64,000 nucleotides of DNA. Source: Halobellus rarus (GTDB taxonomy: Archaea; Halobacteriota; Halobacteria; Halobacteriales; Haloferacaceae). Below the pieces are notes generated by a model. That model saw only the letters and a program-made list of their open reading frames with translations, was not told where the DNA came from and searched no databases. The translations under genes were made by a program, and so were the position numbers. Below, in pieces: positions 30,592 to 36,906 of the stretch (position 1 is its first letter; every line of letters starts with the position of its first letter). The stretch is taken from the NCBI RefSeq assembly GCF_024494595.1, contig NZ_JANHDI010000010.1, forward strand, positions 62,001 to 126,000, given 5' to 3'.

Positions 30592-31824
30592 GTGCGGTAT
30601 CGCTGGACAGTCGCCTTCGCCGTGCTCGTCGCCGCCGGGGTACTGGGAAGTGCGTTTATCGGCCCGGGGGGAGTCGAGAACGGCGGCGATCCACCGCGGG
30701 AGCAGCTGCTTCAGCCGGGGCAGGGAGCGGACTACGTCTGGCCGTACACGAGCCGGAGCCAGTCGATCGACGGGCGAACGCTCGCGCTGAACGTCGTGAT
30801 CGTCGGGACGCCGGCGGAGGTTCGCGCCGTGCTCACCGATCAGTCCGAACTAGAGTGGGCCGCCGCCGAGAGCGATCAGGGTCTCAACGAGTCGGTGTCG
30901 GTCTCACAGCTCGACGAGCCGGTGTCGATCTCGCCGTGGCGGTCGGCACGCGGGGCGGCACGCTACACCTACGTGGCGGAGCGCCCCGGCTCCGGCGAGT
31001 GGGTCGAATCCGACTACCAGCTCGCGACCGGCACGTACCTCGGCAGTCGGACGCACATCCGCGCGTATCCCGGTCCGTCGGACAACTGGACGGCGCTGCA
31101 GGCGCACACCGAGTACTGGGACTGGTTCCGCCTGCGACACTCCGTGACGGGCATCGCGGAGGGGAGTCGGACCGTCGAGCGCGACCTCCGTGACGAGCGG
31201 TTCGTCGACGAGGTCAGCCGCGTCTACCACGGTCACGCGGGCGGCGGCAGCGACGGCTGGATCTCGGTGATCAGGCTCACGTCCGCGACGGACGTGTCCC
31301 CCGGATCGATCGACGAGGCACCCGGTCCCGGGTCGACGCTGGGGCTCCTGAGCGTCGTCCCAGCCGTGGCGGTGCTGGCCGCCGCCGTCCCGCCGGTTCG
31401 GCGACGGGACCTCTGGGACGCCGCGCTCCCGCTGTCGATCGTCGTCGTGGTCCTCGGGGTCCGATCGGTCGGGATCGCCGCAGAAGGACTGTTTCCGGCG
31501 GCGAATCCGAAAATATTCGCCGGGGTTCTCTATCCGATGCTGGTCGTCGGGCCGCTCCTCGCGACCGCGCTCTTGGCCCGGGGTCGCCCAGCGACGCGGA
31601 TGGCGCTCCTCGCCGCCGCGGGACTGGGTGCCGGGTTCGTGCTCGACCTGAGCGGCGTCGGGGTGAGGACCGTCCCGATTCGGCTCGTGCTACACCGAAC
31701 GGCGCTCGTCGGCGTCATCGGACTATTCGCGCTGGGCGTCGCCAGCGAGGAGCGCCGGGTAGCCAGTGCGGGCGCGGTGCTCTGGGTGGCGATCCTCGCC
31801 GCGACCCTCCTCGGGATGGTGTGA
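30592..31824 (+). CDS. Membrane protein with LssY-like N-terminal domain
   Basis: The 410-residue protein starts at a GTG and opens with a signal-anchor (FAVLVAAGVLGSAFIGPGG). The outer domain of about 210 residues has VVIVGTPAEVRAVLTDQSEL and the block HTEYWDWFRLRHSVTGIAEG followed by TVERDLRDERFVD. These resemble the LssY C-terminal domain often linked to PAP2 or DedA membrane proteins. The C-terminal 150 residues form five or six hydrophobic helices. Function unknown; an envelope or lipid role is suggested by the domain and by the neighbouring envelope cluster. Confidence 0.72.
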   Translation: MRYRWTVAFAVLVAAGVLGSAFIGPGGVENGGDPPREQLLQPGQGADYVWPYTSRSQSIDGRTLALNVVIVGTPAEVRAVLTDQSELEWAAAESDQGLNESVSVSQLDEPVSISPWRSARGAARYTYVAERPGSGEWVESDYQLATGTYLGSRTHIRAYPGPSDNWTALQAHTEYWDWFRLRHSVTGIAEGSRTVERDLRDERFVDEVSRVYHGHAGGGSDGWISVIRLTSATDVSPGSIDEAPGPGSTLGLLSVVPAVAVLAAAVPPVRRRDLWDAALPLSIVVVVLGVRSVGIAAEGLFPAANPKIFAGVLYPMLVVGPLLATALLARGRPATRMALLAAAGLGAGFVLDLSGVGVRTVPIRLVLHRTALVGVIGLFALGVASEERRVASAGAVLWVAILAATLLGMV

Positions 31825-31888: not shown

Positions 31889-33586
31889 TCACGAACCGTC
31901 GGTGTCGGTCGCGCGATAGATCACGACACCGTCGTTCTCGTAGGCGCGTTCCCAGCGATCAGAGCGCTCGAAAGAGCGTTCGATCGTTCCGAACTGGGCG
32001 GCGTTCTCACCTCGGATCGTGTACTGTCCCTTCGGGACGTACACGTGCGTCGGGCGCTCGCCGACGTCGGCCGCGACGCTCTCGACGCACTCGGCGCGCT
32101 GACACGTCGAGACCGTCTCGTACGCCGTCATCTGTCGATCGAACGCGTCGGCTCCGACCCACTCCACGCCCCAGTAGCCGACGAGGAGCGTGCGGTCCGT
32201 CAGCGCCGGGAGCCACTCGGCGGCGTCACCGACGACGACGAATCTGGCCCCGGGATCGGTCTCGGCCGCGATCCACGCCATCGCCTCGTCGTCGTCCTCG
32301 TCGAGGAACTCCGGCGTCGACGGGTCCGTCACGAGCGTCGTCTCGTAGGCGAAGTACGCCCCGCCGACGAGCGTTCCGAGGAGAAGCACGGCCGCGGCCG
32401 CCGCGGCACGGCGGTCGATATCGGGTCCGACGCGTCGGCGTCGCGGCTCCGATTCGGAGCGCTCTCGCTCCTGTTTCCGCTCGGAGCCGTCTCCCGCTCG
32501 CTCCGGTATCGCCTCCGACTCGCTCTCCCGAGCGCGTACCAGTACCACGACAGCCACGGGGACCAACACCGCGCTCACCGCGTAGGCGAACCGGGGCTGT
32601 CTGAACAGCAGTTCGGCGACGACGAGCCAGACCGGAAGGAGGTACTCGCGCCGAAGCAGAAGGTAGACCGCGGGCACCAGGGCGACGGCGACGCCCGGGG
32701 AGATCGCTCCCGCGAGCGCGTTCGCTCCGCCACCGACGCCGCCGTGCGTTCCCGACGCCGCGGCGAACACGCCGATGCCGTGCGTCGTGAGGACCCACAC
32801 CAACCACGGAGACGCGAGCAGCGCACCGCCGAGACCGACCGCCAGCCCCGAGGCGAATCCCGACAGCGACCGGTCGCGGACGAGCCAGAAGAGGACGTAG
32901 CTCACGACGACGAAGAGCGAGTACACCGGGTGCGTGAGCACCGTCAGGCCGAACGCGATCGCGCCGAGGGCGACCGCGCGACGTCCGCCGACGCCGTCGT
33001 GGACGAAGACGCGGTAGCCGGCGTAGATGGACGTCGTCGCGTAAAGAAAGGCGAACGCGCGGACCACACCGCCCGCAGAGAGGTGCCACTCCAGGATCTG
33101 CGGGTTCAGCGCCACGAGCGCAGCCGCCGCGGTTCCCGCGGGTCGCGAGTCGGCGGCGTCGCGGCCGAGCAGGTAGATCGGAACCAGCGCGAAAAGCATC
33201 CCGAGACTGGGGAGAAACCGGGAGACTGTGACGGGATCACCGCCGAGATCTACGAGGAGGGCATATAGATAGAACTGAAGCGGGGGGTAGGCGAACGGCA
33301 CCCCATCGGCCGTGTACCCCGGAATCCACGCGGGGAGCGAGTACCCGTTCGCGACGATCTCGGCCGCGATCTTCGCGTACAATCCCGCTCCGTACGCGGG
33401 GTAGGGGTTCGTCGCGAGGTAGATCGCGACGGCGACGACGCCCGGCAGCAATCCGAGAGCGAGCCAGAGCCGGTCGTCGTCGTCGATCGGGACGGCTGCT
33501 CGTGTATCGGCGGCGACGGAGCGGAGTCGGGCGAGCAGCCACCGACGCCCCCGGCCGGGGGGGTCCGGAGAGTTGCTCCCGGTCAT
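31889..33586 (-). CDS. Polytopic membrane protein, GT-C glycosyltransferase-like
   Basis: The 565-residue protein has about eleven hydrophobic helices up to residue 370 and then a soluble outer domain. After the first helix it reads AIYLATNPYPAYGAGLYAKI and AWIPGYTADGVPFAYPPLQF, a loop layout typical of GT-C enzymes that use dolichyl-phosphate sugars. The outer part contains DPGARFVVVGDAAEWLP and GYWGVEWVG. The ATG at 33586 overlaps the upstream gene's stop by four bases (ATGA), so it forms an operon with the arylsulfotransferase-like gene. The acceptor and sugar are unknown; surface glycan assembly is inferred. Confidence 0.75.
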   Translation of the reverse strand: MTGSNSPDPPGRGRRWLLARLRSVAADTRAAVPIDDDDRLWLALGLLPGVVAVAIYLATNPYPAYGAGLYAKIAAEIVANGYSLPAWIPGYTADGVPFAYPPLQFYLYALLVDLGGDPVTVSRFLPSLGMLFALVPIYLLGRDAADSRPAGTAAAALVALNPQILEWHLSAGGVVRAFAFLYATTSIYAGYRVFVHDGVGGRRAVALGAIAFGLTVLTHPVYSLFVVVSYVLFWLVRDRSLSGFASGLAVGLGGALLASPWLVWVLTTHGIGVFAAASGTHGGVGGGANALAGAISPGVAVALVPAVYLLLRREYLLPVWLVVAELLFRQPRFAYAVSAVLVPVAVVVLVRARESESEAIPERAGDGSERKQERERSESEPRRRRVGPDIDRRAAAAAAVLLLGTLVGGAYFAYETTLVTDPSTPEFLDEDDDEAMAWIAAETDPGARFVVVGDAAEWLPALTDRTLLVGYWGVEWVGADAFDRQMTAYETVSTCQRAECVESVAADVGERPTHVYVPKGQYTIRGENAAQFGTIERSFERSDRWERAYENDGVVIYRATDTDGS

Positions 33587-34974
33587 CGTCGCTCGAATCG
33601 CAGTGGAGACCTGATTTCGAGAGTCAGCGACGCTCTCCGGTACTCGATGATCGACCACGCGGGGATCGCGACGGCCAGCACGAGAAGCGCTAGTCCCTCG
33701 GGTACGCCGATCCACCGCGGGAGCAGATACGAGACACCGTTCACGACCTTCGACGGAAGTGCGCCGGCGAGACGGTCGAGCGCGGACCCACCGGCGGAGT
33801 CTGCGGATCGAGACGGCAGGCCGAGCGACGCAGCGCTCTCGCCACCGGAGCTCTCGTCGCCCGTGCCGAGCCGTTCGGCCTCGTACGGGAAGCCGACCGT
33901 CGCAGACCAGACGACCTCACCGTCGGTGTCGATCTCGAAGACGCGGTCGCCGTTCGAGTCGGTCACGAGGGTGTGTCCGTTCGGGAGTCGGTCGGCGTCG
34001 CGCGCCCACTGCATCCGCTGATCGCTCCACGTCCACGAGCGCTCCCACGACCCGTTCGCGCGCTGGTACTCGACGATCCGGCTGTTTTCGGAGTCGGCGA
34101 CGAGCACTGCAGGCCCGCCGCGTTCCGGCGGGATGTAGTCGGGGTTGTGCTGTTCGTACAGCGTGTCGTAGTCGCCGTCGGAGCCGAGCGTCCAGTCGTC
34201 CAGCAGTCCGCGCTCAAAGTCGACGAACGCGACCTGATCCTGGTTGCGGAGGCTCACCATCGCCGCCTCGCGACCGTCGACTTCCACGTACTCGACGTCG
34301 TTGACGTGCGTCCAGTCGTCGGGGAACGGGCCGCCGCTCGCGACGTCGTAGTCCGACTGCGCATCCCACTCCCACACGGTGAGCTCCGTCGTCGTGTTCA
34401 CGACGAAGACGCGGTCGCGGTCGATGTCCGCCACGAGCAGTCGCTCCTCGTCGATGCGGTCGACGTCGTGCCACCGCGTGGAGTGCTTTCCGGGCGTGAT
34501 CCGGCTGAAGACGGCCGTCCGCTCGCCGGTCGTGAGGTTGACCCGCTCGACGCCGTTCCTGGTGCAGACGGAGTCGCCGCCGCACGCGTCGGCCTCCAGA
34601 TGATCGGCGTAGACGAACTCGACGGTGGCGTCGGTTCCGGAGACGGGATCGACGTCCCAGTAGCGCGTGTGTCGATTCTCGTAGTAGCGGATGCGGCCGT
34701 CGGGCGCGAACGCGACGAGTTCGGCCTGCGCCCGCGGGGCGTCGTTCTCGTCGGTCACGAACGCGTTCGAGTCCGTGGCGACGACCGTGCCGTTCGGTCG
34801 GGGCTCGGCGACGGGTGATCGATCGCCGGTTCGGAACGCCTGTTCGACGCCGGGGTCGCCGGTCACCTGGTCGCTCGTCCGCTCGGCTTCGACGTAGCCG
34901 CCGACGAGCGTGACGGCCGAGAGCAACACGAGGACGGCGAAGAGTCCTCGACTGATCCGGTGAGGGAGGGCCAT
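33583..34974 (-). CDS. Membrane-anchored arylsulfotransferase-like beta-propeller protein
   Basis: The 463-residue protein has an N-terminal membrane segment (GLFAVLVLLSAVTLVGGYV), an outer beta-propeller, and a C-terminal membrane helix (GLALLVLAVAIPAWSIIEY). Propeller phrases such as WHDVDRIDEERLLVADIDRD, TELTVWEWDAQSDY, DDWTHVNDVEYVE, NSRIVEYQRANG and RLPNGHTLVTDSNGDRVFEI resemble the ASST family. The catalytic histidine of true aryl-sulfate sulfotransferases could correspond to H in DWTHVNDVEY; this is not certain. Gene order with the GT-C-like gene (ATGA overlap) suggests joint work on a surface glycan or lipid. Confidence 0.78.
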   Translation of the reverse strand: MALPHRISRGLFAVLVLLSAVTLVGGYVEAERTSDQVTGDPGVEQAFRTGDRSPVAEPRPNGTVVATDSNAFVTDENDAPRAQAELVAFAPDGRIRYYENRHTRYWDVDPVSGTDATVEFVYADHLEADACGGDSVCTRNGVERVNLTTGERTAVFSRITPGKHSTRWHDVDRIDEERLLVADIDRDRVFVVNTTTELTVWEWDAQSDYDVASGGPFPDDWTHVNDVEYVEVDGREAAMVSLRNQDQVAFVDFERGLLDDWTLGSDGDYDTLYEQHNPDYIPPERGGPAVLVADSENSRIVEYQRANGSWERSWTWSDQRMQWARDADRLPNGHTLVTDSNGDRVFEIDTDGEVVWSATVGFPYEAERLGTGDESSGGESAASLGLPSRSADSAGGSALDRLAGALPSKVVNGVSYLLPRWIGVPEGLALLVLAVAIPAWSIIEYRRASLTLEIRSPLRFERR

Positions 34975-35064: not shown

Positions 35065-36906
35065 ATGTCGCAGTCAGCGAACGGGAAAAGTATCCGCCGT
35101 CGGGCGGTGCTCGGAGCGCTCGGTGCGGGCGCCTCCGCGAGCCTCGGCGGCTGTCTCCGCCGCGCCCGTTCGGTCGCCGGATGGGATTCGATGGATCCCG
35201 TATCGCTCCGGATCAAGACGCTCCCGGCCGATTCGGATCCCTACGCGCTCCACGCGGCCAGAACGATCACGTCGTGGTACCGAGCGGCTGGCATCGACGC
35301 ACAGGTCGTCCCGGTTTCCGAGGAAGAACTCCTCCGACAGGTGCTTCTCGGAACGGATTTCGACGCCTTCCTCGTTCGGACGGCGAGTCTGCAGCGGGAC
35401 CCAGACCTCTTTTACGGACTGTTGCACTCGCAGTTCGCCGACGCGCGGGGCTGGCAGAACCCCTTCGGATACACCAACCTCGACGTCGACGAGTGGCTGG
35501 AGACCCAGCGTCGCGCGACAGGTGACCGGAGGCGGGAAGTTGTCGCCGAGTTACAGTGGTCGATCGCCCGCTCCCAACCGTTCACCGTCGTCGGATTCCC
35601 CGACGAGATCCGGGCCGCACGAAGAGAGAACTACACGAACTGGCGGAGCGCGAACCTCCGGTCGCCACAGGGGTATCTGGCGCTCAGGCGAGTTGCCGGA
35701 GGGACCACTGAACGGACCAGCGACGACGACTCCGACGAGGAGTCGGTGCTCCGGGTCGTGGGGACCGATCGCCGAGCGACGGAGAACCTGAACCCGCTCT
35801 CCGTGGAGTACCGGCGCTCCGGCGTGCTGACGGGCTTGCTGTACGACGCTATCGGACACGTCACGTCCGAAGGAATGGCACCGTGGCTCGCGGAGTCCTG
35901 GGCGTTCGCCGATAGCGACGGGAATCCGCGCGCGACGGTTCGACTGCGCTCGGGTCAGACGTGGCACGACGGCGAACCCGTGACTGCCGGGGACGTCGCC
36001 TTCACGTACGCGCTGCTCGCGGACACGTCGCTCGGCTCGTCGGAAGGGCAGGACGGCGAGACGGCCGCGGAAACACGGGTCCCCGCGCCGCGTTTTCAGG
36101 GCCGGAGTGGACTCGTCGACGACGTTCGAGTCCTCGACGACGACGTCGTGGTCTTCCGGTTCGGCGACTGCTCTCCGCGAGTGGCGACGCGTGCGTTCAC
36201 CGTACCGATCCTGCCGAAACACGTCTGGCAGGAGCGGACGGATCCAGCCTCGATCAGCGGCATCGAGGTCGGGAGTGCGACGGAGGCGCTCGTGACGAAC
36301 AACATTCCACCGGTCGGGAGCGGACCGCTCCGGTTCGTCCAGAATACGCCTCGGGAATCGTTGCGCCTCGAGGCGGACGAGAGCCACTTCCTCTTCGACG
36401 GTGAGTCCGTGGGCGTGCGACAGGGCATCGGCCCGCCGGAGTTCGACCGACTGGAGCTTCAGGTGGTCGGCTCCGACGACGCCGCCGTCGGGGTCGTCGC
36501 CGAAAGCGGTGCCGACGTGACCTGGACGCCGGCCGGCGCGGATACGGTCCCGCGGATCGGGCGGACGGCAGGCCTCGGACTTCTCGTCCACCGATCGACG
36601 TCGCCCTACCTCGTGGGTTACAACACGCAAACGCCGCCGCTCACGAACCCCCGGTTCAGGCATACCCTAGCGCGCCTGGTGGACCGGTCGTATCTCTCGA
36701 CGGAGGTATTCGACGGCTACGCGCGTCCCGCGGTAAGCCTCCTCGAGGGGACCGAGTGGGTCCCGGAGGAACTCAGGTGGGGCGGAACCGATCCGGTGAC
36801 GCCGTTCCTCGGCACGGAGGGTGAACTGGACGTCGAGCGAGCGAGAGAAGAGTTCCGAAACGCCGGATTCCAGTACGATGACGGACGGCTCGTGAGGGGA
36901 ACGTAA
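35065..36906 (+). CDS. Solute-binding lipoprotein (SBP family 5, DppA/OppA-like) with permuted domain order
   Basis: The 613-residue protein has a twin-arginine signal (SIRRRAVLGALGAG) and lipobox SLGGC (Cys 30). Residues 46-215, with TSWYRAAGIDAQVVPVSEEE, DPDLFYGLLHSQFADARGW and GYTNLDVDEWLETQRRATGD, match what is normally the C-terminal part of family 5 binding proteins. Residues 225-613 then run through the normal N-terminal part (LSVEYRRSGVLTGLLYDAIG, SGQTWHDGEPVTAGDVAFTY) and end at EEFRNAGFQYDDGRLVRGT, just where the missing part would follow. This is a circular permutation. No ABC permease or ATPase adjoins it. It overlaps the PAP2 gene (TAATG). Confidence 0.82.
   Translation: MSQSANGKSIRRRAVLGALGAGASASLGGCLRRARSVAGWDSMDPVSLRIKTLPADSDPYALHAARTITSWYRAAGIDAQVVPVSEEELLRQVLLGTDFDAFLVRTASLQRDPDLFYGLLHSQFADARGWQNPFGYTNLDVDEWLETQRRATGDRRREVVAELQWSIARSQPFTVVGFPDEIRAARRENYTNWRSANLRSPQGYLALRRVAGGTTERTSDDDSDEESVLRVVGTDRRATENLNPLSVEYRRSGVLTGLLYDAIGHVTSEGMAPWLAESWAFADSDGNPRATVRLRSGQTWHDGEPVTAGDVAFTYALLADTSLGSSEGQDGETAAETRVPAPRFQGRSGLVDDVRVLDDDVVVFRFGDCSPRVATRAFTVPILPKHVWQERTDPASISGIEVGSATEALVTNNIPPVGSGPLRFVQNTPRESLRLEADESHFLFDGESVGVRQGIGPPEFDRLELQVVGSDDAAVGVVAESGADVTWTPAGADTVPRIGRTAGLGLLVHRSTSPYLVGYNTQTPPLTNPRFRHTLARLVDRSYLSTEVFDGYARPAVSLLEGTEWVPEELRWGGTDPVTPFLGTEGELDVERAREEFRNAGFQYDDGRLVRGT

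Follow-up and report, generated by a model that had tools for sequence, protein, structure and literature searches.

Solute-binding proteins (SBPs) of family 5, or cluster C (OppA, DppA, AppA and NikA; PF00496), have their Pfam match and lipobox, and probably their fold content, in common with the Halobellus rarus lipoprotein analysed here. They differ from it in that its segments follow the order [364-508][52-362] of a profile of ordinary members, its termini lie inside the last lobe, and the permease genes are missing. LpqW has an OppA-like fold, as far as is known in the ordinary segment order, and is not known to serve a transporter. This mycobacterial lipoprotein channels PIM4 to lipomannan in envelope lipoglycan synthesis (PMC3229680). 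Likened by function, LpqW may be considered the closest precedent for the SBP described below; LpqW acts at the branch with PimE, whereas the SBP is paired with a PAP2 enzyme. This enzyme has PF14378, the FPSLH and HWxxD motifs and its best folds in common with known PAP2_3 proteins (IPC synthase/Aur1-like; LpxE, PgpB), but belongs to an archaeal subfamily tied to the SBP and reaches modest TM-scores only. Neither natural permuted family-5 SBPs nor an SBP-PAP2 pair were found in the open literature searched, and natural permutation in this family appears to be undescribed there. The features of the locus are listed in Table 1; the window referred to below is the whole stretch of 64,000 nucleotides that was analysed (G000:C24:62001-126000).

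Table 1. Position of the SBP gene, its segments and the neighbouring genes in the window
Feature	Coordinates	Strand	Evidence or remark
Conserved protein without Pfam match	30592..31824	+	cluster in 21/54 loci
GT-C-type membrane protein (weak PMT_2)	31889..33658	-	PF13231 1.1e-5; cluster in 19/54 loci
Arylsulfotransferase-like protein, divergent from SBP gene	33583..34974	-	PF14269 3.4e-8; cluster in 16/54 related loci
Circularly permuted family-5 SBP lipoprotein, 613 aa	35065..36906	+	
Tat-type signal and lipobox RRRAVLG...LGGC, Cys30	35095..35154	+	sequence; conservation in alignment A2
Moved segment (residues 44-205; profile 364-508), found at the end of an ordinary SBP	35194..35679	+	HMM, AF2 model
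GWQNPFGY motif, residues 129-136	35449..35472	+	
Acidic, fast-evolving linker joining former C- and N-termini, residues 206-228	35680..35748	+	pN/pS, pLDDT
Normally N-terminal part, residues 229-613 (profile ~52-362)	35749..36903	+	Pfam, HMM
PAP2_3-family membrane enzyme, 287 aa	36906..37769	+	PF14378 1e-17

Segment order of the lipoprotein

The reference for the ordinary order was an HMM of 538 positions built from 16 ordinary family-5 SBPs, on which ordinary members are collinear. This canonical order is absent in the lipoprotein: residues 44-187 matched positions 364-508, ahead of residues 237-602, which matched positions 52-362. SBP_bac_5 (PF00496) was the only Pfam family matched, residues 272-608 corresponding to profile positions 3-284 and residues 48-121 to positions 288-361. 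When residues 45-224 were placed at the C-terminus in silico, the two-piece Pfam match of 135.8 bits, itself above the curated cut-off of 32.4 bits, became a single match of 150.1 bits (3-361), and the phmmer match with PDB entry 1vr5 changed from 241-552/30-305 to one alignment spanning 18-540/31-518. That the protein is a family-5 SBP in circularly permuted order is confirmed. The first-pass annotation had proposed this order, its boundaries and a lipid anchor ahead of the normally last segment; all of these were borne out by HMM, Pfam and rotation, and are conserved across haloarchaea. The alternative of a complete, normally ordered SBP behind an unrelated N-terminal domain is ruled out by the rotation and the HMM matches, positions 364-508 being missing C-terminally and present at the N-terminus.

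The AlphaFold2 (AF2) model of the SBP, made from an alignment that left out the plasmid loci, has a pLDDT of 86 and a pTM of 0.83, and its moved segment is confident. All top Foldseek matches were cluster-C SBPs (1xoc AppA, 1dpe DppA, 4oeu NikZ), aligned by this sequence-order aligner over only about 400 columns with a TMq of 0.36-0.44, as a permuted fold would lead one to expect of a sequential method. In the SBP, the aligned position does not keep the Asp with which DppA grips the peptide N-terminus.

The same order was present at more than 50 haloarchaeal loci, each found as one collinear match in one scan of genome contigs, and the permuted SBP was detected in 191 of the 292 sampled Halobacteria genomes and in 58 of 77 genera. 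The SBP is under purifying selection (dN/dS = 0.19), with the strongest constraint on the moved segment. The linker (about residues 206-228) has a pN/pS of 0.72, as compared to 0.16 for the moved part and 0.24 for the rest of the protein, and the pLDDT falls below 50 at residues 217-223. The lipobox LGGC is preceded by a twin-Arg motif, and R12, R13 and C30 are each at least 90% conserved in alignment A2. Residues W130, Q131, P133 and F134 of GWQNPFGY are at least 96% conserved in PAP2-linked SBPs and are absent from the 8 permuted SBPs outside this group with which they were compared. This motif, near-invariant and group-specific, suggests one specific ligand; in ordinary family-5 SBPs, its region is presumably close to the cleft.

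Permuted relatives and origin of the order

Permuted SBPs were also found in complete Opp operons, comprising two permeases and two ATPases, of Alphaproteobacteria and haloarchaea: Acetobacteraceae (L059), Roseomonas (L132), Nitratireductor (L130) and Maritalea (L131), and, on the haloarchaeal side, Haladaptatus (L128), Halalkalicoccus (L129) and Halomarina (L133). Several of them adjoin peptidase genes. Those at L132, L130, L059, L128 and L129 have the permutation and the clade in common with the PAP2-linked SBPs, and the breakpoint is identical on the 16-SBP HMM, but unlike the PAP2-linked proteins they are devoid of GWQNPFGY. A further permuted SBP is encoded in Anaerolineae (L061), where the contig ends ahead of its downstream genes. 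All of these permuted SBPs break at the same point.

In a tree built from de-permuted sequences, the permuted SBPs all fall on one side of a branch with a support of 97/94, forming a clade that spans Bacteria and Archaea, and the PAP2-linked SBPs make up one clade (100/100) nested among the transport-type permuted SBPs. The simplest history would be a single permutation in a transport-type SBP, followed by permease loss and PAP2 capture in haloarchaea. Since permuted SBPs are also part of full Opp operons and the PAP2-linked clade is nested among them, permutation and the departure from transport are separate events. The link between the two that was implied in the first-pass annotation did not hold, since permuted SBPs of the same breakpoint and ancestry are part of complete Opp operons, and the idea that the permutation caused the loss of transport is thereby ruled out.

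At another locus, L137 (G258, C1:344666-346378, minus strand), a family-5 SBP has the order [330-502][50-337], with a break before the helix after which the main permuted clade breaks. An OppB-like permease lies beside it, despite the missing OppC_N match in this genome. L137 is apparently a second case of circular permutation in family-5 SBPs that arose independently, and the loop region may be especially prone to such events.

The PAP2 partner

The start codon of the PAP2 gene overlaps the SBP stop by one base (TAATG), and its product matched PF14378 with 65 bits against a cut-off of 27. A PAP2_3 gene is directly downstream, that is, on the same strand and within about 600 bases, of 90 of the 103 SBP genes surveyed; in 52 of the 55 called pairs the gap between SBP stop and PAP2 start is -8 to +24 bases. 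The 13 SBP genes without a downstream PAP2 include nine second copies in SBP-PAP2-SBP arrays of Natrinema and relatives, which have PAP2 just upstream; the others are two lone SBPs (L013, L120), one at a contig end (L054) and an ordinary bacterial SBP (L063). Across 284 genomes, the SBP and this PAP2 subfamily occur together in 184, only the SBP in 1 (G131, where the match is weak), only PAP2 in 0 and neither in 99. A role of the SBP as PAP2 partner, as had been suggested from the single locus, is well supported by this co-occurrence, whereas the lipid or glycan binding suggested along with it is putative; the same order and PAP2 linkage, sought in other haloarchaea, were found there.

R165, H201, H243 and D247 of PAP2 are invariant in 55 homologues, among them the catalytic His/His/Asp of motifs 2 and 3 (H201, H243, D247). 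In classical PAP2 phosphatases motif 3 reads SR-x5-H-x3-D; the position of its Arg is taken here by Thr237 (STMYLGIHWxxD), also invariant in the 55 homologues. The AF2 model of the enzyme has a pLDDT of 91, and its nearest folds are IPC synthase (9vj4) and Aur1-Kei1, followed by LpxE and PgpB, the matches being modest, with a TM of about 0.44 in the case of IPC synthase and Aur1. These nearest folds point to a lipid phosphotransferase or phosphatase as the probable reaction type. In PgpB-type enzymes, the PAP2 active site faces outwards.

Tandem arrays of the form SBP-PAP2-SBP or SBP-PAP2-SBP-PAP2 were seen in Natrinema, Natronococcus and relatives (L032, L034, L035, L038-L040, L042-L047 and L062), where the second SBP is often without its own PAP2. 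In Halolamina pelagica CDK2 (L052, 6001-7760), the SBP frame is in several pieces, owing to a sequencing error or a pseudogene, and is followed by PAP2.

Proposed role and alternatives

The reading favoured here, to which we assign a moderate probability, is that of a PAP2-coupled, exapted lipoprotein that presents a ligand or has a regulatory function and that stems from a once-permuted, transport-type family-5 SBP. The circular permutation would have occurred once, inside the last lobe, in an Opp/Dpp-type ancestor; in one haloarchaeal branch the permeases would then have been lost and the SBP would have come to depend on a PAP2_3 membrane enzyme as its obligate partner. A Tat substrate with its lipid anchor on the normally last segment, the SBP would accommodate in its cleft a specific ligand from outside the cytoplasm and either present it to the neighbouring PAP2 or regulate the enzyme in response to it. 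PAP2 would dephosphorylate or transfer a lipid head group or a polyprenyl (pyro)phosphate on the outer face. The physical partnership of SBP and PAP2, the nature of the ligand and the direction of the reaction are inferred. More tentatively, as a possibility that is rather less likely than not, the pair may constitute a widespread haloarchaeal two-part system, in which the permuted SBP serves as the subunit that presents the substrate to an outward-facing lipid phosphotransferase or phosphatase and the anchor has been moved to the other lobe.

The partner reading is supported by the co-occurrence of SBP and PAP2 and the short gaps between their genes, by the nesting of the PAP2-linked clade among transport-type SBPs, by the constraint on the SBP and its GWQNPFGY motif, by the nearest folds of the PAP2 model, by the LpqW precedent and by the retention of the pair in four genomes (G086, G098, G149, G230) in which no OppC_N match, oligo_HPY ATPase or other family-5 SBP was found. 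Counting against it are the tandem second copies and the two lone SBPs, which have no PAP2 of their own, the modest fold matches of PAP2 and the presence of importers in most pair-bearing genomes: by OppC_N, Opp/Dpp importers are encoded in 177 of the 185, and there the SBP could feed an unlinked permease. It is conceivable, though unlikely, that the SBP continues to act as a receptor for nutrients and docks on Opp/Dpp permeases whose genes lie elsewhere, with PAP2 as a mere operon neighbour. This would agree with the permuted relatives in complete Opp operons, with the occurrence of OppC in 269 of 284 haloarchaea and with the Opp ATPases of the H. rarus genome itself, but the SBP is present independently of OppC_N (in 8 of the 15 genomes that lack OppC_N and in 177 of the 269 that have it; p = 0.40), and the near-perfect co-occurrence with PAP2 as well as the pair-bearing genomes without a detectable importer also argue against it.

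Locally, none of the 42 PF00528 permease matches of the genome lies within the window, the one nearest to the SBP being at C24:141376, about 42 kb downstream, and Opp-type permease clusters were not found in PAP2-linked loci; the claim that the gene is coupled to PAP2 instead of permeases has thus withstood scrutiny. Elsewhere in the H. rarus genome, an OppD/OppF-like ATPase pair with two oligo_HPY matches (L178, C22:64-2339) is located at a contig start. Neither OppB/OppC N-domain matches nor another family-5 SBP were found in this genome. The Opp operon was probably cut by an assembly gap at this end of contig C22, with the loss of its upstream permeases and SBP, and on account of the two oligo_HPY ATPases H. 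rarus does not count as an importer-free case. Absence of OppC_N alone proved to be an unreliable marker of importer-free genomes, because G258 is without it and yet possesses oligo_HPY ATPases. G068 contains one decayed oligo_HPY fragment.

SBPs serve as extracytoplasmic receptors in some systems, and a sensor would fit that general pattern, the ligand-bound SBP signalling via PAP2 or an unlinked receptor and taking no part in catalysis. Such a role is quite improbable, in that PAP2 and three envelope-type neighbours were the only gene clusters found to recur beside the SBP across lineages and the catalytic residues of PAP2 are intact. We consider it decidedly improbable that the SBP binds no ligand, its cleft binding being vestigial, and merely stabilises or positions PAP2 as a scaffold or chaperone: near-perfect pairing and translational coupling would be in line with it, but not the strong group-specific conservation of features such as GWQNPFGY, with its presumed location near the cleft. 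Misassembly, a pseudogene, a recent accident or a chance order has nothing in its favour among the findings and next to no probability, and is already refuted, because the same order was found in 191 of 292 genomes and 58 of 77 genera, with a dN/dS of 0.19 and a confident fold.

The distribution of the pair suggests that an importer receptor has been recruited, in some two thirds of Halobacteria, as the partner of a lipid enzyme in the membrane; if true, this would be an SBP feeding an enzyme and not a transporter. Where members carried an annotation, it read "ABC transporter substrate-binding protein", a name that misdirects transport predictions. With the two genes so tightly paired, the function of each can be tested directly. 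The recurring arylsulfotransferase-like and GT-C-type neighbours are suggestive of chemistry on envelope lipids or glycans. In Haladaptatus and Haloferax, the SBP-PAP2 pair is near phosphoglucosamine mutase-type genes (glmS and glmM by annotation at L134); by gene cluster, neighbours of this type are also found at loci L023, L026-L028, L030 and L031.
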